Below, one piece after another: positions 16,315-31,666 of a stretch of DNA of 64,000 nt. The position numbers were made by a program, and so were the translations under genes. The stretch lies in NCBI RefSeq assembly GCF_010993745.1, contig NZ_WOTN01000004.1, positions 434,001-498,000 on the forward strand. The letters are read 5' to 3'. Position 1 is the stretch's first letter. Every line of letters starts with the position of its first letter. The notes beneath the pieces were generated by a model that worked only from the letters and a program-made list of their open reading frames with translations, did not search any database and was not told where the DNA came from. This stretch comes from Fodinicola acaciae (GTDB lineage: Bacteria > Actinomycetota > Actinomycetes > Mycobacteriales > HKI-0501).

Positions 16315-17310
16315 GTGCGTGGCTCAAACAGCATTGAAGGCTACGACGTGAGCTTGGACGACGCGTTGGCGCTCATGGAAGACGAGGAGCCACTTGACGC
16401 AGATCGCCTCACCAGTCTGGAGATCATCGGCTATCGAAACGCGCTGACGTACATCCAGCAACTAGCCGATGACGCGGAATTTGTCCTTGATGAATCATTG
16501 CTGCGAAGTCTGCATTTCATGATGCTCGGGCATGATCTTACGAAGAGTCCTGGCCGATACAGGCGCGGGCCGATATACGTGCATGATGATGAGCGAGACC
16601 TCACCGTATACGAGGGGCCCGATCGCGACGACGTGCCTCGTTTGATGCGAGAGCTTGTTTCCGGTCTACAGTCCGTTTCCGATAACTGTCCTGTGTTCGT
16701 CAGAGCTGCGATGGCTCACCTGAATTTGGTCATGATCCATCCATTTCGCGACGGGAATGGGCGCATGGCGCGCGCACAGCAGACTCTGATTCTGGCGCGA
16801 GAGAAGATTCTCGCGCCAGAGTTCAGCAGCATCGAGGAGTGGCTTGGACGGAATACCAGCGAATACTACCGGGTGTTGGCGTCGGTCGGTGGAGGTTCCT
16901 GGCATCCAGAACGCGACACAACGACATGGGTAAAGTTCAATTTAGTCGCTCATCATATGCAGGCACAGACCGTATTGCGGCGAGTTGACGACGCCTCTCG
17001 GATCTGGAGCTGGTTGGAGCAGGTTGTCGAAACCAGGCGCTTGAATCCGCGGATGCTCAACGTTCTCTATCCGGCAGTGATGGGGTTCAGAGTACGACGA
17101 ACCTCGTACGAAAAGGACGCGGAAATCGAGACGGGCACGGCGAATCGCGATCTCCGAATGATGGTCGACAAGGGCCTTCTCATCGCGAGAGGTGAGACCA
17201 AAGGCCGATACTACGCTGCGACGCAGGACCTGCGTCGAGAGCGACAGGACCTGATGGGGAAGCGGGCAGAATTGATCAATCCCCATGCGGCTGCGGTCAA
17301 CCTCTATTGA
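16315..17310 (+). CDS. Fic-family protein (AMP-transferase type), class II
   Basis: A 331-residue Fic protein from the first usual start (GTG). The core motif HPFRDGNGRMAR (H142) transfers AMP or another nucleotide to a target hydroxyl. The inhibitory motif SNSIEG lies at residues 4-9, N-terminal to the core, which defines class II Fic. A winged-helix-like C-terminus follows. Coding-like sequence continues upstream in frame for about 55 codons (LTPDLDEDDRRVVAEIESYR) back to a TGA within the inverted repeat, without ATG, GTG or TTG. The true start is therefore unclear, or the 5' end has been altered. Confidence 0.8.
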   Translation: MRGSNSIEGYDVSLDDALALMEDEEPLDADRLTSLEIIGYRNALTYIQQLADDAEFVLDESLLRSLHFMMLGHDLTKSPGRYRRGPIYVHDDERDLTVYEGPDRDDVPRLMRELVSGLQSVSDNCPVFVRAAMAHLNLVMIHPFRDGNGRMARAQQTLILAREKILAPEFSSIEEWLGRNTSEYYRVLASVGGGSWHPERDTTTWVKFNLVAHHMQAQTVLRRVDDASRIWSWLEQVVETRRLNPRMLNVLYPAVMGFRVRRTSYEKDAEIETGTANRDLRMMVDKGLLIARGETKGRYYAATQDLRRERQDLMGKRAELINPHAAAVNLY

Positions 17311-17507: not shown

Positions 17508-17568
17508 GGCGTGGCGGAGGATACGAGATTCGAACTCGTGAGGGGTTGCCCCCAACACGCTTTCCAAG
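17508..17568. repeat. left attachment site (61-bp tRNA-Ser 3' duplication)
   Basis: A 61-bp sequence from GGCGTGGCGGAGG to TTTCCAAG, identical to 31575-31635. It reproduces the CCA end, acceptor, T arm, variable arm and part of the anticodon arm of tRNA-Ser(GGA), and then diverges. It is the truncated tRNA copy left by site-specific integration. Confidence 0.93.
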
Positions 17569-17879: not shown

Positions 17880-19247
17880 ATGACTGCTGAGATTGCGATC
17901 ATGAACCGGTCGGCGATCGCGCTGGCTGCAGACAGCGCCGTAACTGTCACGCAGGTTGGCGAAGATAAAGACGGTAATCGGATCTATCGGCAGAAAATAT
18001 ACTCTAATGCAAATAAGCTATTCGAGTTAGTTAAGGGCCGACCCATCGGCATAATGATCTATAATAATGCCGAATTGTTGGATGTTCCATGGGAGACGCT
18101 TATAAAGCTATTCCGCGAGGAGAACCGAGATTGCGTCGCCGACTCGGTAGATGCTTACTTTGAGCGGTTCATCAGTTTTCTCTCTAAGAACACCGACCGC
18201 TTCTTTCCCGTTGAAGCGCAGGTGGAGTACTTCGAAGCATTCATGCGGGCGTTTGTGGACCAATTTCTCAACACATTCTCTGGGCACTTACAGCACATGG
18301 CGACTGAGAGAAGCATCCGACTAACGAAAGGGATCAAGCGACAGACAATCGAAAGTTTGCTCGACAGACTCCTTGTCGGGTGGCAAAAAGTGAAGCGAGC
18401 TCCCTGGTCTCGGGATTTGCCAGCGGCCGAATTGAATGAGATACGACGAGCCATCCTTGAGTTGATGCCAGATGAAGCCGAAGGATTCCTTCTCCTGGCG
18501 AAACACAAGAGACAGCTGCGTGACGCGGCAACCCTTGCCCTTCTTTGTGCGACTGATCCGCCGTCGTGGACCGGTCTGGTGGTGGCCGGATTCGGCCAAG
18601 GTGAGCCGTATCCCAGCCTCTGTCACATGAAAATTAGTGGGGTCGTCGGCAATCGCTTGATGATCCTCGGTCAACTCAAACGAAGTGTTGATTCAGAGTC
18701 TGGCGCAATGATTATGCCGTTCGCGCAAAGCGCTGAAGCTCAATTATTCCTAACCGGCGTTGACCCCGAGGTTGCGGACGCAATTGGCAGCTTCTGGAGT
18801 GAGGTAACAACCAAATTGCCGCATGCAATCTCCAAGATCGTAAGTGACACTGGAGCCTCGTTGACGGACGCTCAGGAGGAGGCTGTGAACGAGGCGTTGG
18901 AAACGTTCGGTGGCGCTATCTGGGACAGCTTTGCTGAGTACATGAACCGCTTCCACGAGGATACGAGAATTTCTCCAATATCAGCCGGCGCTCGTTTCAT
19001 GGCGAAGAGCGATCTTGCTGAGCTGTCCGAAGCACTAGTCAATCTCGCTACGCTCCGTGCTCGCGTCTCGATCGATAGGTCTGAGACGGTCGGCGGCGCT
19101 ACCGACGTTGCCGTCATATCTCCAGGTGACGGCTTCGTGTGGATCAAACGCAAGCACTACTTTGATCTGTCGTTAAATCCCTTTTGGGCTGTTCGACACG
19201 GCGTGGAACATGTACCATGCCCGCAGGACTCTCGGGGAGGTTACTAA
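17880..19247 (+). CDS. proteasome-like Ntn-hydrolase family protein (predicted)
   Basis: A 455-residue protein with GC content well below its chromosomal surroundings. The N-terminus MTAEIAIMNRSAIALAADSA can be laid on proteasome beta subunits and HslV. Thr2, exposed if Met1 is removed, matches catalytic Thr1, and Asp18 matches Asp17 of the 'AADS' strand. A Lys around 39 (QKIYSNANKLFEL) takes the place of Lys33, before GIMIYNNAEL. The remaining 350 residues are helical with no known domain. GGAGG precedes the ATG. A 55-residue gene starts 3 bp after its stop. Peptidase activity is a prediction. Confidence 0.65.
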   Translation: MTAEIAIMNRSAIALAADSAVTVTQVGEDKDGNRIYRQKIYSNANKLFELVKGRPIGIMIYNNAELLDVPWETLIKLFREENRDCVADSVDAYFERFISFLSKNTDRFFPVEAQVEYFEAFMRAFVDQFLNTFSGHLQHMATERSIRLTKGIKRQTIESLLDRLLVGWQKVKRAPWSRDLPAAELNEIRRAILELMPDEAEGFLLLAKHKRQLRDAATLALLCATDPPSWTGLVVAGFGQGEPYPSLCHMKISGVVGNRLMILGQLKRSVDSESGAMIMPFAQSAEAQLFLTGVDPEVADAIGSFWSEVTTKLPHAISKIVSDTGASLTDAQEEAVNEALETFGGAIWDSFAEYMNRFHEDTRISPISAGARFMAKSDLAELSEALVNLATLRARVSIDRSETVGGATDVAVISPGDGFVWIKRKHYFDLSLNPFWAVRHGVEHVPCPQDSRGGY

Positions 19248-19249
19248 CG

Positions 19250-19417
19250 ATGGGAACGTTCACGTCATCGCTTCCCTTGCCTGGAGGTAGCAGGCAGGGC
19301 GCAACCTCCAACGAAGCAGGCAGAGCGCGCAAAGCCGCAGCTGATGCTGTAAAGCAGGCGTTGGCGAAGGTTGCGAACTCGCAGGCGCGTCGTGAGAAGG
19401 CCTCCAGCTCGAAATAG
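19250..19417 (+). CDS. small Ala/Lys-rich protein coupled to the Ntn-hydrolase-like gene
   Basis: A 55-residue basic protein, MGTFTSSLPLPGGSRQGATS followed by an Ala/Lys-rich helix (ARKAAADAVKQALAKVANSQ). It starts two bases after the upstream TAA, with GGGGAGG overlapping the end of that gene, so translation is coupled. No family is recognised. A binding partner, tag or regulator of the upstream protein is possible. Confidence 0.6.
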   Translation: MGTFTSSLPLPGGSRQGATSNEAGRARKAAADAVKQALAKVANSQARREKASSSK

Positions 19418-19444: not shown

Positions 19445-19573
19445 GCTGGTTGGTCTTCCCGTCGGCAGGCGTAGCCCTAGCGGGCCGGGTCGTCAGGGTC
19501 AATCGTGGGGTGTCGGTTGACCCTGACGACCCGGCCCGCTTGCCTGTGGTGCCGGCGGGAAGACCAACCAGTG
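19445..19573. repeat. long imperfect inverted repeat (about 58-nt arms)
   Basis: The arms agree in an outer block (CTGGTTGGTCTTCCCG against its complement CGGGAAGACCAACCAG) and an inner 23-nt block containing GGGCCGGGTCGTCAGGGTCA. A mismatched middle separates the blocks, and a 12-15-nt centre (TCGTGGGGTGTCGG) separates the arms. The structure follows the 55-residue gene. It could be a terminator, a MITE-like insertion or a structured RNA. Confidence 0.75.
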
Positions 19574-23977: not shown

Positions 23978-24408
23978 GCGGCAAGCGCCGATGGTTCGGC
24001 CGGTCCACCGAGAAACCCACCCTGGTGCCGACCACGGTACCGGCAACCGTGGACATCTCCGGCCGACCGGACGTGTTCGCGATCATCCGCGAAGCCGACC
24101 CTTCCGGCGTGTCCGGACTGGGCATCGTCGGCTGGGGTGTGATGTTCCCTGACGCCAAGGCCGTACTGCGATGGACCGGCCAGACGACCGGCGTGCAGCA
24201 GGTTTCGGTCTATGACTCGATCTTCGACATCGAAACCGTCCACGGTCACGATGGAGCCACTAAGATCGTCTTCTTTCCCCAGCCGCCGTCCGCACTCGGC
24301 GGCGACGCCGGCCCGACCGTGACGGGTGACGCTGCGACCGCAAAAATTTGCGATCACCGCACCTCAACGGCTAACCTCTCGACAAGTCGAGTAGATGTCT
24401 CCTCGTAG
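23974..24408 (+). CDS. conserved hypothetical protein of actinomycete elements
   Basis: A 144-residue soluble protein. The central block VFAIIREADPSGVSGLGIVG...GVMFPDAKAVLRW...FDIETVHGHDGATKIVFF is a pattern I associate with small conserved proteins beside RepSA/TraSA modules. Its start overlaps the preceding broken gene (ATGA) and has GGAGG upstream. Its 3' end contains the operator of the GntR gene and overlaps that gene by 14 bp. Function unknown. Confidence 0.62.
   Translation: MSGKRRWFGRSTEKPTLVPTTVPATVDISGRPDVFAIIREADPSGVSGLGIVGWGVMFPDAKAVLRWTGQTTGVQQVSVYDSIFDIETVHGHDGATKIVFFPQPPSALGGDAGPTVTGDAATAKICDHRTSTANLSTSRVDVSS
24378..24391. promoter_or_regulatory. GntR/KorSA-type operator, perfect palindrome
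   Basis: CTCGACAAGTCGAG, a perfect dyad ending three bases before the ATG of the GntR gene. A copy with one change lies upstream of the plasmid-type operon at 25205. The position implies autoregulation. Confidence 0.75.
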
Positions 24409-25162
24409 GTGGGTGGGTAGGGTGCCTCTGGATGTGGCTCCGCCTCGGTATGTCGTGATCGTGAACACGATCCAGCAGCGCGTCGAGGACGGCACCTACC
24501 CGCCCGGCTCCATGCTTCCCAGTGAAGCCCAGCTCAGCGACGAGTTCTCCGTCTCCCGCGTGACCGTGGTACGCGCGCTGTCCATCCTGGCTCAGGACGG
24601 CTGGGTCGAGGCGCAGCATGGACGCGGACGGATCGTACGCGGTCGCCCCCGACCGAAAGTCGAGGCGCTGCCCGGCTACGTCTCGGACGCGCTTGACGGC
24701 AACGAGTCCGGCACCACCGCCGGCATTGCCGTGTTGGAAACCCGCCGCGTGCAGTGCCCTCAACGGATCGCGTCCGCGCTCCAAGTCCCAGCCGGTACGC
24801 CGACCGTGGCCCGGCGACGGCTCGTGACGGTCGCCGAAGTCGGAGCCGTTGAGCTGTCCACGGTGTACATCACTGTGGAAAACGCCGGGCGTACCGACCT
24901 GGAATCCTCCGCGCCGCTCTCCGGCGGAGTCCTCGATCATTTGCGGCAGCGCAAAGAAATCTCGTTCGGGCAAGCCACTGAGATCGTGTCTGCACGGGCG
25001 GCTACGGCCGACGAGGCACGCACTCTGGAGATCGAGCGCCGTTCACCCGTACTGACCGCGCTCGTGATCGCCTACGACCGCTCCAACGCGCCCGTGGTCG
25101 CCATCGACAGCGTCTACGCGCCGACGCGCCAGGAACTCGAAAGCACATATCTGCTGCCCTGA
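24395..25162 (+). CDS. GntR-family regulator (KorSA-like repressor of the element)
   Basis: A 255-residue GntR/HutC-type regulator. The winged helix is at about residues 18-85 (VEDGTYPPGSMLPSEAQLSDEFSVSRVTVVRALSILAQDGWVE) and the C-terminal UTRA effector domain at about 90-250. In pSAM2 the KorSA homologue represses the pra gene and thereby replication and transfer. The palindromes at 24378 and 25205 fit binding at its own start and at the downstream operon. The operators suggest that it holds the element in the integrated state. Confidence 0.87.
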   Translation: MSPRRWVGRVPLDVAPPRYVVIVNTIQQRVEDGTYPPGSMLPSEAQLSDEFSVSRVTVVRALSILAQDGWVEAQHGRGRIVRGRPRPKVEALPGYVSDALDGNESGTTAGIAVLETRRVQCPQRIASALQVPAGTPTVARRRLVTVAEVGAVELSTVYITVENAGRTDLESSAPLSGGVLDHLRQRKEISFGQATEIVSARAATADEARTLEIERRSPVLTALVIAYDRSNAPVVAIDSVYAPTRQELESTYLLP

Positions 25163-26513: not shown

Positions 26514-26717
26514 GTGTCTGGCATGGGTAAGGGTAAACGGGGACCGGCACGGGGTAGCCGGTGCGGTCGCTGCGGCGCGATGGTGACTGGCCTGGACAAA
26601 GGGGCGGCGTGCCAGTCCTGCGCCGATCAGCTGACCTTTGAGGCGTTGGGCCGTACCCGGGGAAAGTTCGTCTCGGTCGGCTGGCCGACTGCCCGCACTC
26701 ACGGCGGTGCCCTGTGA
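26514..26717 (+). CDS. small zinc-ribbon protein
   Basis: A 67-residue basic protein with CGRCGAMVTGLDKGAACQSC, two CxxC pairs forming a zinc ribbon, and a Lys/Arg-rich N-terminus. The GTG at 26514 has GAGGTGAG nine bases upstream; a GTG at 26502 and an ATG at 26523 are alternatives. The stop overlaps the start of the translocase gene, so it belongs to the same operon. It may help recognise element DNA. Confidence 0.6.
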   Translation: MSGMGKGKRGPARGSRCGRCGAMVTGLDKGAACQSCADQLTFEALGRTRGKFVSVGWPTARTHGGAL

Positions 26718-28321
26718 TTGGGCCGCGCGGGGCCAAGCAGACGACCGGCTTGGTGGTCGTTCCCGAAGACCAAGTACGCGGCAAGTGGGCTGTCCCGCTG
26801 GCCATCCTGCGGGCTCTGGGCCGACTGGTGCGGTGGGTGGTCATGCATCCGGTGGACGTGGCCGCGCTGCTCGGGTTGGGGTGGTTGTGGGTCCAGCACA
26901 GCTGGCAGGCCCCGGTGATCGCGGTCGGCCTCGTCGGCCTGGCGCTCACCGGGTGGGCGGTCTGGAAACCAGCTTTGTTTCACCGGTTCGCGTTGTGGCC
27001 GGTGATCTCGCGGTTTCGGCACATGTGGAAATACCAGATCCGCTGGCGGCCCGCGATGACCCTGTGCAAGCTGGACGCGACCTACGACCGGCAGCAATAC
27101 CTGCCAAAGCTGGTGTGGGTAGCCGCGAATCGGTGGGTCGACAAGGTCACCGTTCGCATGTTGATGGGCCAAAAACCCGGCCACTACACGTACAAGGCTG
27201 AAGAACTGGCACGGACGTTCGGTGTCCGTGAGTGCCGGATCTCCTCGGCCCCGCCGATCGCGCCGGACCGTACCGGGCGGTTCGCGTGGCTGCTGCGGCT
27301 GCTCGACCGGGTCCGGTACCGGGATCATCCTGACCGCGTCGTGCTGACGTTGATCAAGCGGGACCGGCTGGCCAGAACCGTTATGCCGCTGCACATTCCA
27401 CGCGTGCCGAACCTGCGGGCACTGCCGGTCGCGGTACGTGAGGACGGCGCGCTTTACACGCTTCGGCTGGCCGGGTCGCACGTGCTGGTCGCCGGCGCCA
27501 CCGGATCAGGCAAAGGCTCAGTGATCTGGTCAGTCATCCGCTCCCTGGCCGGCGCGGTGCATGACGGGTGGGTTCAGCTGTGGGTCATCGACCCCAAAGG
27601 CGGCATGGAACTGGCCTTTGGCCGGTCGCTGTTTCACCGGTTCTGCTACGGCGAGGACGACACGGCCGACCCTGACCGTAAACGCTCGTATGAGATCGCC
27701 TACGCCGAGTTTCTGGAAGATCTCGTGGTCGAGATGCAAGGCAGGCAAGCGAAACTACGCGGGGTCGCGCGGGATCACACGCCGAGCAAGGACAGCCCGG
27801 CGATTGTCGTGATCATCGATGAGCTGGCCTCGCTGACCGCGTACGTCATCGATCGCGAGGCCAAGAAACGCATCGCGGCCGCATTGGCGCTGCTGGCATC
27901 CCAAGGCCGCGCGGTCGGCATCGACCTGCTGGCCGCGTTGCAGGACCCGCGCAAAGAGGTGCTGCCGTTCCGGGACCTGTTCCCGACCCGCATCGCGCTG
28001 CGACTGGTCGAAGACGGCCAGGTCGACCTGGTGCTCGGCGACGGCGCCAGGGACCGCGGCGCGTACGCCGACCTCATCGACGCCACCGGACAAGAAGGCG
28101 TCGCCTACGTCGTGCTGGACGGCATGCCCGAACCAGTACGGCTGCGGTTCGGGTGGATCACCGATGACGAGATTCACCGCGTCGCGGCCTGGTACGCACC
28201 CGGCCGGCGCAACACGTACGCGGAGCTGGCAGCGATGGACGGCGACCACGCGGGACCTGGCGTCATCGACTCCACCACGGTCGAGTTCCCTCGGCCGGAG
28301 TTCGGGGACGCTGGCGAATGA
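26714..28321 (+). CDS. FtsK/SpoIIIE-type DNA translocase (TraSA/TraB-like transfer protein)
   Basis: A 535-residue membrane-anchored ATPase. Two hydrophobic helices lie at about residues 48-85 (VAALLGLGWLWV, VIAVGLVGLALTGWAVW). The motor domain follows with Walker A GATGSGKGS (about 260) and Walker B IVVIIDELASL. In Streptomyces elements this single protein moves double-stranded DNA between hyphae in place of a type IV system. It overlaps the zinc-ribbon gene before it and the Rep gene after it by four bases each. Confidence 0.9.
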   Translation: MIGPRGAKQTTGLVVVPEDQVRGKWAVPLAILRALGRLVRWVVMHPVDVAALLGLGWLWVQHSWQAPVIAVGLVGLALTGWAVWKPALFHRFALWPVISRFRHMWKYQIRWRPAMTLCKLDATYDRQQYLPKLVWVAANRWVDKVTVRMLMGQKPGHYTYKAEELARTFGVRECRISSAPPIAPDRTGRFAWLLRLLDRVRYRDHPDRVVLTLIKRDRLARTVMPLHIPRVPNLRALPVAVREDGALYTLRLAGSHVLVAGATGSGKGSVIWSVIRSLAGAVHDGWVQLWVIDPKGGMELAFGRSLFHRFCYGEDDTADPDRKRSYEIAYAEFLEDLVVEMQGRQAKLRGVARDHTPSKDSPAIVVIIDELASLTAYVIDREAKKRIAAALALLASQGRAVGIDLLAALQDPRKEVLPFRDLFPTRIALRLVEDGQVDLVLGDGARDRGAYADLIDATGQEGVAYVVLDGMPEPVRLRFGWITDDEIHRVAAWYAPGRRNTYAELAAMDGDHAGPGVIDSTTVEFPRPEFGDAGE

Positions 28322-30000
28322 CAGAGGACTCGGGGAATCCTTCTATGACAACGAAGTCTGACCCTCATGACCGGAACCTGTCCCGCATAGAACGGGCCAG
28401 AATGCCGCTAGCCAAAGAAGTGTTGGAATCCGTCGCGCTGCAATTCGGCGTGTGCGTACGACCGATGGCCATGCGGCGCATAGACACCACCACCGGCACC
28501 ACAGAAATTATCCCGGTGCCGTGTGGCGCCCGGCTGGCCAGCAAATGCGAGCCGTGCGCCAAACGGGCTAAGGCTCTGCGGCTGGCACAGTGCCGCGAGG
28601 GTTGGCACCTAGCCGACGAACCGCCGCTGGAGTCCGACGACCCGACCGAATTGCAGCAGCAGCTGGCGACGGCCCGTGCTGACGCGCAGAGCCATCGTGA
28701 CGAGTTGGCCGGGCAGCTTGGGGCCGATCACCCCGAGGTCGCGGAGCTGGACGTCCAGCTGGCCGAGGTCGACGAGCAACTGCGGCAGGCTGGCGTACGC
28801 GGCACCCTGACCGACAAACCGGCACGCCGGACTCGCTCGACCAAACGGCGCCAGGATGCCGCCGAGCTGCCTCGGCTGCCCGTCGACAAACGCACGGTTG
28901 GCCGGACCTACACGGCGAACGACGGCACGGTCTGGCGTCCGTCGATGTTCATCACGCTGACCTGTGACTCGTACGGCCGGGTCGGTCCGGATGGTGCGCC
29001 GGTTGATCCGTCCAGCTACGACTACCGGCGTGCCGCTCGGGATGCCATCCATTTCCCGAAGCTGGTTGACCGGTTCTGGCAGAACCTTCGCCGCGCGGTC
29101 GGCTGGGACGTGCAGTACTTCGCCTCTCTGGAACCACAACGCCGGCTGGCGCCGCACCTGCACGCGGCAATTCGCGGGACCATTCCGCGGACTGCCATCA
29201 AGCAAGTTGCAGCTGCCACGTATCACCAGGTGTGGTGGCCGGCCTGCGACGAACCGCGTTACCTGCCGGGGCATCTCCCGGTTTGGGACGGCGAGCTGGC
29301 CGCGTACGTCGACCCCGACAACGGCGACCAGCTCACGACCTGGGATCAGGCGCTCGATGACATCGGTGAGGATGACGAGCCGGCGCACGTCGTACGGTTC
29401 GGCGCGCAGGTCGACGCCAAAGGAGTCGAGGCCGGCACCGAACGGGCCAACCTGCTCATCGGCTACCTGGGCAAATACCTGACAAAGCAGCTGGACGAGT
29501 GCCACGAAGCGATCACCGACCGACAGAAAGCGCACCTCGACCGGTACGCGGACGCGCTCCGCTTCGAGCCGTGCTCGCCGACCTGCGCCAACTGGCTCAT
29601 GTACGGCGTACAACCGAAAAACAGCCGGCCCGGGCTGGCTCCCGGACACTGCAAAGGCCGCGCACACAAAAGGGCCACGCTCGGGTTCGGTGGCCGGCGC
29701 GTACTGCTCTCGCGCAAGTGGTCCGGCAAGACACTCACTGACACCCGCAACGACCGGCGCCGCTGGGTGCTCGGCATGATCCAGAAACTCCAACAGCACG
29801 GCGGCGACCAGGCGCACGTCGAGGTTTCGGCAACCGAGAACCCCGACCGGTACGCCTGGGAACGACTGTCCACATCGGACACCGATGCCATCGGCCGTAG
29901 GCAGCTGCTCATGCACGCCATCGCCGACCGGCAACGATGGCGCCGCGAGCTCGACCAGGCGCAGGCACTCGCGGCCGGACAGCCGGAGGTGGCGGCATGA
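28318..30000 (+). CDS. RepSA-like replication initiator
   Basis: A 560-residue rolling-circle initiator. It has an N-terminal zinc cluster (CGARLASKCEPCAKRAKALRLAQC), a central helical linker, and the HUH nuclease region with the metal motif PHLHAAIRG and the probable nicking tyrosine in IGYLGKYLTKQ. The family replicates pSAM2-type elements after excision. The origin is often inside or next to this gene but could not be located. The stop overlaps the excisionase start (ATGA). Confidence 0.88.
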   Translation: MTEDSGNPSMTTKSDPHDRNLSRIERARMPLAKEVLESVALQFGVCVRPMAMRRIDTTTGTTEIIPVPCGARLASKCEPCAKRAKALRLAQCREGWHLADEPPLESDDPTELQQQLATARADAQSHRDELAGQLGADHPEVAELDVQLAEVDEQLRQAGVRGTLTDKPARRTRSTKRRQDAAELPRLPVDKRTVGRTYTANDGTVWRPSMFITLTCDSYGRVGPDGAPVDPSSYDYRRAARDAIHFPKLVDRFWQNLRRAVGWDVQYFASLEPQRRLAPHLHAAIRGTIPRTAIKQVAAATYHQVWWPACDEPRYLPGHLPVWDGELAAYVDPDNGDQLTTWDQALDDIGEDDEPAHVVRFGAQVDAKGVEAGTERANLLIGYLGKYLTKQLDECHEAITDRQKAHLDRYADALRFEPCSPTCANWLMYGVQPKNSRPGLAPGHCKGRAHKRATLGFGGRRVLLSRKWSGKTLTDTRNDRRRWVLGMIQKLQQHGGDQAHVEVSATENPDRYAWERLSTSDTDAIGRRQLLMHAIADRQRWRRELDQAQALAAGQPEVAA

Positions 30001-30242: not shown

Positions 30243-31502
30243 ATGAAGCGGAACGCAAACGGTGAATCGACCGTATATGAAGGAAAAGACGGCCGGTGGC
30301 ACGGACGAGTGACTGTCGGTGTGAGGGATGACGGAAGCGCCGACCGGCGTCATGTCAGTCGGAAGACGGAAAAGGCGGTCCGTGCTGCCGTCCGCAAGTT
30401 GGAGAGCGATCGCGATTCCGGCAAGGTCAAGAAGGCCGGCAGGACTCCGACCGTGGAGAAATGGCTGCTGCACTGGCTGGAGAACATCGCTGCGCTGTCG
30501 GTCAAGTCGTCCAGCTACGAGGCGTATCGCGTCGCTGTGCATGTCCACCTGGTCCCCGGCATCGGTAAGCACCGGTTGGACAAGTTGGAGCCGGATCACC
30601 TGGAGCGCTTCTACGCGAAGATGATCAGGTCAGGTAGCAAACCGGGTACGGCTCATCAGGCTCACCGCACTATCCGGACAGCGCTCGGCCAAGCTGTCCG
30701 GCGCGGCTACATCACGAGCAACCCTGCGGCAATCGCCACGCCGCCCCGGCTGACTGAAGAAGAGGTGGACCCGTACTCGGTCGCTGAGGTGCAGCGCATT
30801 CTCGCTGCGGCGGCCAACCATCGGAACAGTGCACGGTGGGCTGTCGCTCTGGCGCTGGGGCTCCGGCAGGGCGAGGTGCTGGGGCTGAAGTGGACGGATG
30901 TAGATCTCGGCAACGGCACGATGGTCATCCGGCGGTCTCGCGTACGACCGAAGTACGAGCACGGTTGCGGCGGTGACTGCGGCCGGAAGCCTGGCTACTG
31001 CAAGCAGAAGCGACAGATCCGACCGGACACTGACGACACGAAGTCACGGGCTGGTCGACGTACGGTCGGTCTGCCTGGCGAGCTGGTGACGCTGCTCCAG
31101 AAGCATCGGGACGAGCAGGACCAGGAGCGCGAGAACTCTCGGCAGTTGTGGACTGACGGCGGCTGGGTCTTCGCGACGCGGACCGGCGGGCCGCTCAACC
31201 CGAACACCGACTATCGCGAGTGGAAGCACCTCATCCACGAGGCCGGCGTACGGGATGCGCGGCTGCATGACGCTCGCCACACGGCGGCTACAGCGTTGCT
31301 GATCCTCGGCGTGCCGGAGCGGGCTGTCATGGATCTGATGGGCTGGTCCAGTACGTCCATGGCCAAGCGCTACCAGCATGTCACCGGACAGATCCGCCAG
31401 GACATCGCGGCGCAGCTCAACGGTCTGATCTGGCAGACGAAGAAGGCGAAGAAGAAGGCCGGCAAGAAGAAGGCCAAGAAGCGCAAGGCCGACGACAAAT
31501 GA
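30243..31502 (+). CDS. int: tyrosine recombinase/integrase of the element
   Basis: A 419-residue integrase. An N-terminal AP2-like arm domain (NGESTVYEGKDGRWHGRVTV) is followed by a core-binding SAM-like domain (about 65-150) and the catalytic domain. Catalytic residues are Arg in LALGLRQGEVLGLKW, His-x-x-Arg in LHDARHTAATALL and Tyr in STSMAKRYQHV. The C-terminus is a Lys-rich tail. It ends 76 bp from the tRNA-Ser gene, whose 3' part is the attachment core. Confidence 0.94.
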   Translation: MKRNANGESTVYEGKDGRWHGRVTVGVRDDGSADRRHVSRKTEKAVRAAVRKLESDRDSGKVKKAGRTPTVEKWLLHWLENIAALSVKSSSYEAYRVAVHVHLVPGIGKHRLDKLEPDHLERFYAKMIRSGSKPGTAHQAHRTIRTALGQAVRRGYITSNPAAIATPPRLTEEEVDPYSVAEVQRILAAAANHRNSARWAVALALGLRQGEVLGLKWTDVDLGNGTMVIRRSRVRPKYEHGCGGDCGRKPGYCKQKRQIRPDTDDTKSRAGRRTVGLPGELVTLLQKHRDEQDQERENSRQLWTDGGWVFATRTGGPLNPNTDYREWKHLIHEAGVRDARLHDARHTAATALLILGVPERAVMDLMGWSSTSMAKRYQHVTGQIRQDIAAQLNGLIWQTKKAKKKAGKKKAKKRKADDK

Positions 31503-31574: not shown

Positions 31575-31635
31575 GGCGTGGCGGAGGATACGAGATTCGA
31601 ACTCGTGAGGGGTTGCCCCCAACACGCTTTCCAAG
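31575..31635. repeat. right attachment site (61-bp direct repeat)
   Basis: Identical to 17508-17568. Here it is continuous with the 5' half of tRNA-Ser, so integration restored a complete tRNA on this side. Confidence 0.93.
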
Positions 31636-31666
31636 CGTGCGCCCTAGGCCTCTAGGCGAATCCTCC
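31579..31666 (-). tRNA. tRNA-Ser (anticodon GGA), integration target
   Basis: An 88-nt minus-strand class II tRNA. The acceptor is GGAGGAT/ATCCTCC, the anticodon arm is CACGC-TTGGAAA-GCGTG with GGA, a long variable arm (TTGGGGGCAACCCCT) follows, and the CCA is encoded. Its 3' part equals the attachment core of the element. Confidence 0.96.

Follow-up and report, generated by a model that had tools for sequence, protein, structure and literature searches.

A predicted PMI-4-type proteasome-like hydrolase and a position-conserved small gene carried by an AICE of Fodinicola acaciae

Within the 64,000 nucleotides of Fodinicola acaciae DNA analysed here (the window), an AICE carries a gene for a 455-aa proteasome-like protein and, directly behind it, one for a small basic protein. 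By its architecture the larger protein is a well-supported new member of PMI-4, a catalogued but uncharacterised family of proteasome homologues, and the small downstream gene, whose pairing with PMI-4 is also well supported, is what is new here. The reading we favour, to which we give an even chance, is that the first of the two makes a threonine Ntn hydrolase that works independently of an unfoldase, that the second makes a small regulator or adaptor dedicated to it, and that both travel on the AICE as conflict or defence cargo.

Table 1. The gene pair and the AICE that carries it, in window coordinates.
Feature	Position	Strand	Remarks
att repeat, left AICE end	17508..17568		61 nt, 100% identical to 31575-31635
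PMI-4-type proteasome-like Ntn hydrolase	17880..19247	+	455 aa; Thr2, Asp18, Ser19 and Lys46 invariant or nearly so
small basic protein	19250..19417	+	55 aa; stands where other loci have the conserved small gene; its partner-profile match is not significant
404-nt segment common to two related AICEs of the genome	19445..19848		88-90% identical; right of the gene pair
GntR/UTRA regulator	24395..25162	+	
FtsK/SpoIIIE-type transfer protein	26714..28321	+	
RepSA replication initiator, pSAM2 type	28318..30000	+	PF20199, E 1.5e-100
tyrosine integrase	30243..31502	+	PF00589, E 3.4e-25
att repeat, right AICE end	31575..31635		overlaps tRNA-Ser 31579-31666 (-)

The att repeats at the tRNA gene enclose an integrase, a RepSA-type replication protein and an FtsK-type transfer protein (Table 1), the combination by which we identify the element as an AICE; its GntR/UTRA regulator is presumably KorSA-like. 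A preliminary description of this DNA had proposed the pair as AICE cargo, and both this gene content and a comparison with two related AICEs elsewhere in the genome (G000:C4:1003500-1023400, L206; G000:C4:1356500-1376400, L207) bear it out. These share a core about 84% identical over 4.8 kb, lie at other integration sites (tRNA-Phe and tRNA-Thr) and hold partly other cargo. The interval from the att repeat to the 404-nt segment measures ~146 and ~138 nt in them against ~1876 nt in the window, where it contains PMI-4 and the small gene; this with/without comparison concerns the interval and not whole elements, the related AICEs differing elsewhere too. Shorter overlapping frames also run through the longer interval.

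Several further features of these regions were noted. The cargo region of one related AICE encodes an APH-like protein and a Ser/Thr kinase similar to the PD-T4-6 defence kinase (PADLOC E 2.5e-33, a kind of model that kinases readily match), and the other AICE encodes a 445-aa protein of no assigned function. By eye, the window's 404-nt segment contains a long hairpin around 19480-19545. A SoFic-like Fic/DOC protein (16315-17310; PADLOC E 2.5e-46) ends ~200 nt outside the left att repeat.

The 455-aa protein begins MTAEIAIMNRSAIALAADSAVT. Its reading frame is open upstream as far as 17778; Shine-Dalgarno-like sequences (AGGAGG and GGGGAGG) precede the starts of the two genes, which makes Met1-Thr2 the likely N-terminus despite the open frame. 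Just 2 nt separate its stop from the start of the small protein, which has a pI of 11.5. Searches of Pfam, NCBIfam and PADLOC returned no credible match for either member of the pair; PADLOC, in its 2023 database, has no model for either, which places them outside the known anti-phage defence systems represented there. The viral fold library gave 0 matches under E 1e-3, and the single PDB match to the lone 455-aa protein by phmmer, a designed protein at E 1.2, was dismissed as chance. The phrog_5990 profile matches residues 1-436 (E 2.1e-80) and is catalogued without function. In its own genome the protein has one place, itself.

Structure prediction and fold comparison, the check that the preliminary description had itself named, return a proteasome beta fold, so that the predicted alpha-beta-beta-alpha, 20S-beta architecture of the 455-aa protein is well supported. 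The AlphaFold2 model, computed from a 124-sequence alignment, has a mean pLDDT of 91.1 and a pTM of 0.87. When it was compared with the PDB by Foldseek, ranks 1-48 were all proteasome chains, 6 of them at E < 0.001, and rank 49 was unrelated. Structural alignment to yeast beta5 gave a Z of 16.2 over 185 residues and put model residue 2 on chain residue 1. The best sequence match of the family profile in the PDB was Thermoplasma beta, with a whole-sequence E of 7.5e-4 composed of two stretches that are weak alone (i-E 46 and 0.22); in this register T2 and the GG-iDVavI strand are aligned, the lysine of NKLF falls on that of KKLF, and the Thermoplasma residue facing D18 is Glu, not Asp. Cullin-3 chains score near Thermoplasma beta (E 0.002); they match profile positions 84-163, which fall within the first helical insert, and a relationship with them was set aside as chance helix similarity.

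Conservation was read from the same 124 rows, namely the window protein and 123 of 130 non-redundant homologues (L050 was left out as short, and L163, L164, L166, L167, L169 and L170 as coming from the phage or plasmid collection). Residue 2 is T in 122 rows and S in 2; among 134 unique full-length sequences, the window's included and fragments uncounted, it is T in 132 and S in 2. D18, S19 and K46 are each present in 124/124, and at residue 39 there are 110 rows with K, 10 with R, 3 with T and 1 with A. These counts uphold the original placing of D18 on Asp17 and, together with the structural alignment and the profile register, that of Thr2 on the catalytic Thr1. The same description had sought the Lys33 equivalent near residue 39 and staked its reading on the conservation of T2, D18 and K39: T2 and D18 hold and the lysine exists, but it is the invariant K46 and not K39, which is incompletely conserved. 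A candidate for the Gly47 oxyanion glycine, by our own placement, is position 62, with G in 82/124 and N in 29/124; the window protein has N.

What had looked like an unfamiliar extension of 350 residues proves in the model to be the rest of the beta fold together with two helical inserts (residues ~80-455). Strands 231-282 and 408-423, and by our assignment H3 and H4, fall inside it, with the inserts at about 105-223 and about 296-372. Helices 71-81 and 90-103 are present, and there is no helix between strands 34-41 and 56-62. One of the best-conserved stretches of the family, the nearly invariant WIKRKHYF (residues 421-428), has a low AlphaFold confidence in the single-protein model (pLDDT about 60) as well as in the fusion model described below.

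Fuchs, Alva and Lupas described 22 new proteasome homologues in 2021 (PMC8665760), and in their table PMI-4 (Proteasome homolog with Multiple Insertions 4; representative sequence HDY66466.1) has the most members of all 22 families, with 501 sequences. PMI-3 and PMI-4 are both given two inserts, after H1/H2 and between H3/H4; PMI-4 is recorded from Actinobacteria, Cyanobacteria, Bacteroidetes, Euryarchaeota and phages, and PMI-3 from Proteobacteria, other bacteria and Euryarchaeota only (PMC8665760). Assigned against that published text, our model carries its inserts after H1/H2 and between H3/H4, with none between S3/S4, and the relatives found here are likewise spread over bacteria, Actinobacteria among them, archaea and phages. 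The window protein thus fits PMI-4 by architecture and distribution; PMI-4 is preferred over PMI-3 since the survey's records from Actinobacteria, Cyanobacteria, Bacteroidetes and phages are, as between the two, all of PMI-4.

A relative is encoded by 225 stretches of the genome collection, from many bacterial phyla and from archaea. The best 80 of the 225 have 30-36% identity and align from residue 1 (one from residue 7) to at least residue 428, and such nearly full-length matches put the open reading frame beyond chance. Homologues are also encoded at 74 loci on viral contigs, and there were 13 matches in phage records (7 covering at least 80% of the query) and 10 in plasmid records (8 covering at least 80%). 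In a tree of 77 rows the window protein clusters with three other actinobacterial sequences, L015, L007 and L083 (support 99). Archaeal and bacterial labels need 7 changes on this tree against 12.1 in shuffles, and the starred branches force only 2 of them, so that the sequences are at most compatible with transfer between archaea and bacteria. Other genomes of the class contain proteasome-like ORFs that have diverged further (478 and 330 aa; L084, L085, L087); these are perhaps other PMI variants.

PMI-4 homologues occur in mobile contexts, namely prophages, phages, phage satellites and plasmids, some of them near defence genes. In streptococcal satellites PMI-4 sits at or towards the end opposite the integrase. 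Among 5426 E. coli genomes 22 gave a partial DNA match, all chromosomal (a second query also gave 22), and the four loci inspected place PMI-4 inside prophages. In one prophage type it adjoins a repressor-like HTH gene; in another its orientation is the reverse of that of its neighbours, with a small gene on one side and a Q antiterminator on the other. E. coli strain 165 has a homologous left flank (87% identical), then ~250 nt, then a different antiterminator gene, and no PMI-4. A position at the prophage edge is not the rule, since, of 53 homologues on viral contigs, 5 come within 500 nt of the end of the contig downstream.

The genes around 18 loci gave matches to 116 PADLOC families and same-genome control regions to 13, both being counts of redundant families and not of genes, obtained from 140/140 neighbour and 137/140 control proteins with the 3 longest controls removed; among the controls, 7 genes matched one family. 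Such defence-rich surroundings are no more than suggestive. The wider neighbour set contains many housekeeping genes, and the nearest-neighbour alignment set for 40 loci comprised 145 of 160 proteins, 11 having been omitted as short and 4 as long. On Rhizobiales plasmids, multiubiquitin and ThiF (E1-like) genes lie a few kb from PMI-4 in L169, L170, L175 and L176, with a ClpP-like gene also near it in the last three; this is 4 of the 8 plasmid records inspected, of 10 that matched, one of the 8 being without annotation. Ubiquitin-like neighbours were ruled out as a general partner, all four cases being from Rhizobiales.

No unfoldase of the HslU, Clp or Lon type appears among the annotations of the inspected PMI-4 loci, which agrees with the observation first made in the window that no AAA unfoldase is adjacent. 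Together with the spread over bacteria and archaea, this would suit an unfoldase-free quality-control protease with the small gene as its assembly helper, and a quality-control role for such homologues is raised by Fuchs et al. (PMC8665760). We nevertheless regard it as unlikely, given the mobile contexts, the few E. coli genomes concerned (22/5426) and a sporadic occurrence within the class, where 5/394 genomes match and only the window's own genome and G075 do so over nearly the whole model.

The small downstream gene recurs across these loci. An ORF of 30-110 aa lies near the PMI-4 stop in 125 of 129 loci, these being the ones with at least 260 nt downstream among the 134 unique full-length sequences, the window's included. 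Under a stricter rule (40-85 aa, start at most 30 nt from the stop) the count is 116/128 PMI-4 loci against 191/788 control stops, which are the ends of open frames of at least 250 codons on both strands of the same loci and not all real genes. A Shine-Dalgarno sequence stands at 72/120 small-gene starts against 158/2391 random ATGs, a comparison that favours the partners, for which any nearby in-frame ATG was counted, the control ATG having one chance. The coupled 55-residue partner of the preliminary description, 2 bases after the stop, is accordingly supported by gene order, Shine-Dalgarno sequence and position conserved across loci. In E. coli the downstream ORFs (49 or 34 aa) are unannotated.

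Substitution rates show purifying selection on the small gene in close pairs: dN is below dS in the 40 closest pairs listed, as in L003/L011 (dN 0.14, dS 1.1) and in further close pairs with dN/dS values of 0.16/1.88 and 0.12/1.64, dS being saturated in several of them. Small-gene dN is 0.7 to 3.3 times PMI-4 dN in these 40, and a small protein that often changes faster than the enzyme, a tight gene order and homologues on plasmids, satellites and prophages would all be expected of a toxin-antitoxin-like addiction pair, in which PMI-4 would be a protease that is toxic unless inhibited by the small protein, so that the element is retained in the cell. We hold this to be rather improbable, as the enzyme gene is the first of the pair and orphan partner-like matches are few and remnant-like.

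These matches come from a search of 20 genomes with a profile of 28 hand-picked partners. It found a match beside PMI-4 in 20/20 and 3 matches elsewhere; 18 of the 28 partners come from the genomes searched and those matches are by construction, so that only the rarity of matches elsewhere is informative. Of the 3, one seems to have decayed, another is a motif on its own and the third lies in an unrelated ORF. The isolated N-terminal motif, FHSMKAVEEHYFPN, belongs to a 92-aa ORF (L200, 944-1222, minus strand) in the genome behind L021, with no adjoining PMI-4. An iterated partner profile gathers 63 loci, a partly circular count since it was iterated on the set counted, and about half of the small ORFs, a very divergent set, are therefore not recognisably alike. 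Against the partner profile the window's 55-aa protein scores an E of 7.5, fourth among 341 small ORFs, which is not significant; it is assigned as a partner by position, spacing and ribosome site, not by sequence. As to natural fusions of PMI-4 and partner, the one candidate was a single long tail (L169), rejected as not partner-like by eye; in a read-through fusion model of the two the partner remained undocked, at a pLDDT of 45-63.

All 28 hand-picked partners share one invariant proline, preceded in 27 by two aromatic or Leu residues and followed by a G..LA-type helix region. The short aromatic-Pro motif that the better-conserved partners carry could be taken as the substrate or acceptor site of a sequence-specific, Connectase-like transpeptidase or ligase, the small protein being that substrate or acceptor, and there is precedent for a ligase in the same superfamily in the survey's account (PMC8665760). 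This is distinctly improbable in our view: the model lacks the S3/S4 helical insert and has H1/H2, and the motif is missing from most partners outside the profile.

Returning to the hydrolase with a dedicated regulator or adaptor, the mechanism that we propose would begin with removal of Met1 by methionine aminopeptidase, as the small residue 2 implies, leaving Thr2 as the putative N-terminal nucleophile, aided by Asp18 and Lys46. We infer that PMI-4 cuts peptide bonds with no AAA unfoldase of its own. Its helical inserts would prevent or remodel ring assembly, two such inserts making the classical double ring unlikely by an argument of Fuchs et al. (PMC8665760), and the enzyme would probably act as a monomer or small oligomer. 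The small protein, presumably translated directly after PMI-4, most likely binds it, and would gate the enzyme, recruit for it or inhibit it; in the better-conserved group it consists of an aromatic/Leu-Pro motif and then a helix. That WIKRKHYF is conserved and yet of low pLDDT suggests that it becomes ordered on contact with something else, either a second subunit or the partner. Mobility, sporadic presence, the repressor-adjacent site in one prophage type and the defence-rich surroundings favour a role in conflicts between phages and mobile elements, in which the pair would most likely serve as a weapon; a role in defence proper is so far only suggested.

More tentatively, and with more doubt than confidence, PMI-4 and its partner might form a proteasome-like machine of general occurrence that has two components, needs no unfoldase and has been carried through bacteria and archaea by mobile elements. 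When phages attack, the tiny protein would program the protease or release it. Such a machine would be a new protease-based immune system, and PMI-4 would have its first genomic context. The survey saw no genomic context or co-occurrence pointing to a specific function of the homologues (PMC8665760), and we found no report of a PMI-4 function or of a position-conserved partner gene in the open-licence PMC literature. A small, position-conserved and often unannotated gene offers a clue to how the PMI-4 family may work and turns its function into a direct experimental question, one that the prophage copies in E. coli make testable in the laboratory.

Among known systems, the 20S beta subunits (yeast beta5, Thermoplasma beta) share with the window protein the fold, Thr1, Lys33 and the GG strand, whereas the window protein has 455 aa, two large helical inserts and no propeptide before the Thr. 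HslV, Anbu and BPH belong to the same superfamily, and Connectase is, like the window protein, an insert-bearing Ntn enzyme, and monomeric, according to the survey (PMC8665760). The former three are compact ring subunits, unlike a protein with two large inserts, and HslV pairs with HslU, which is annotated beside PMI-4 in none of the inspected loci; the window protein is thus not an HslV. Nor is it a Connectase, which has its insert elsewhere, as two helices between S3 and S4, and is without H1/H2. To our knowledge, no small partner gene accompanies Connectase. With PMI-4 itself the window protein shares the beta-subunit core, the long inserts after H1/H2 and between H3/H4 and the Thr/Asp/Lys active site; that family was published without informative gene context (PMC8665760), whereas here it comes with a position-conserved small gene, as a mobile pair.
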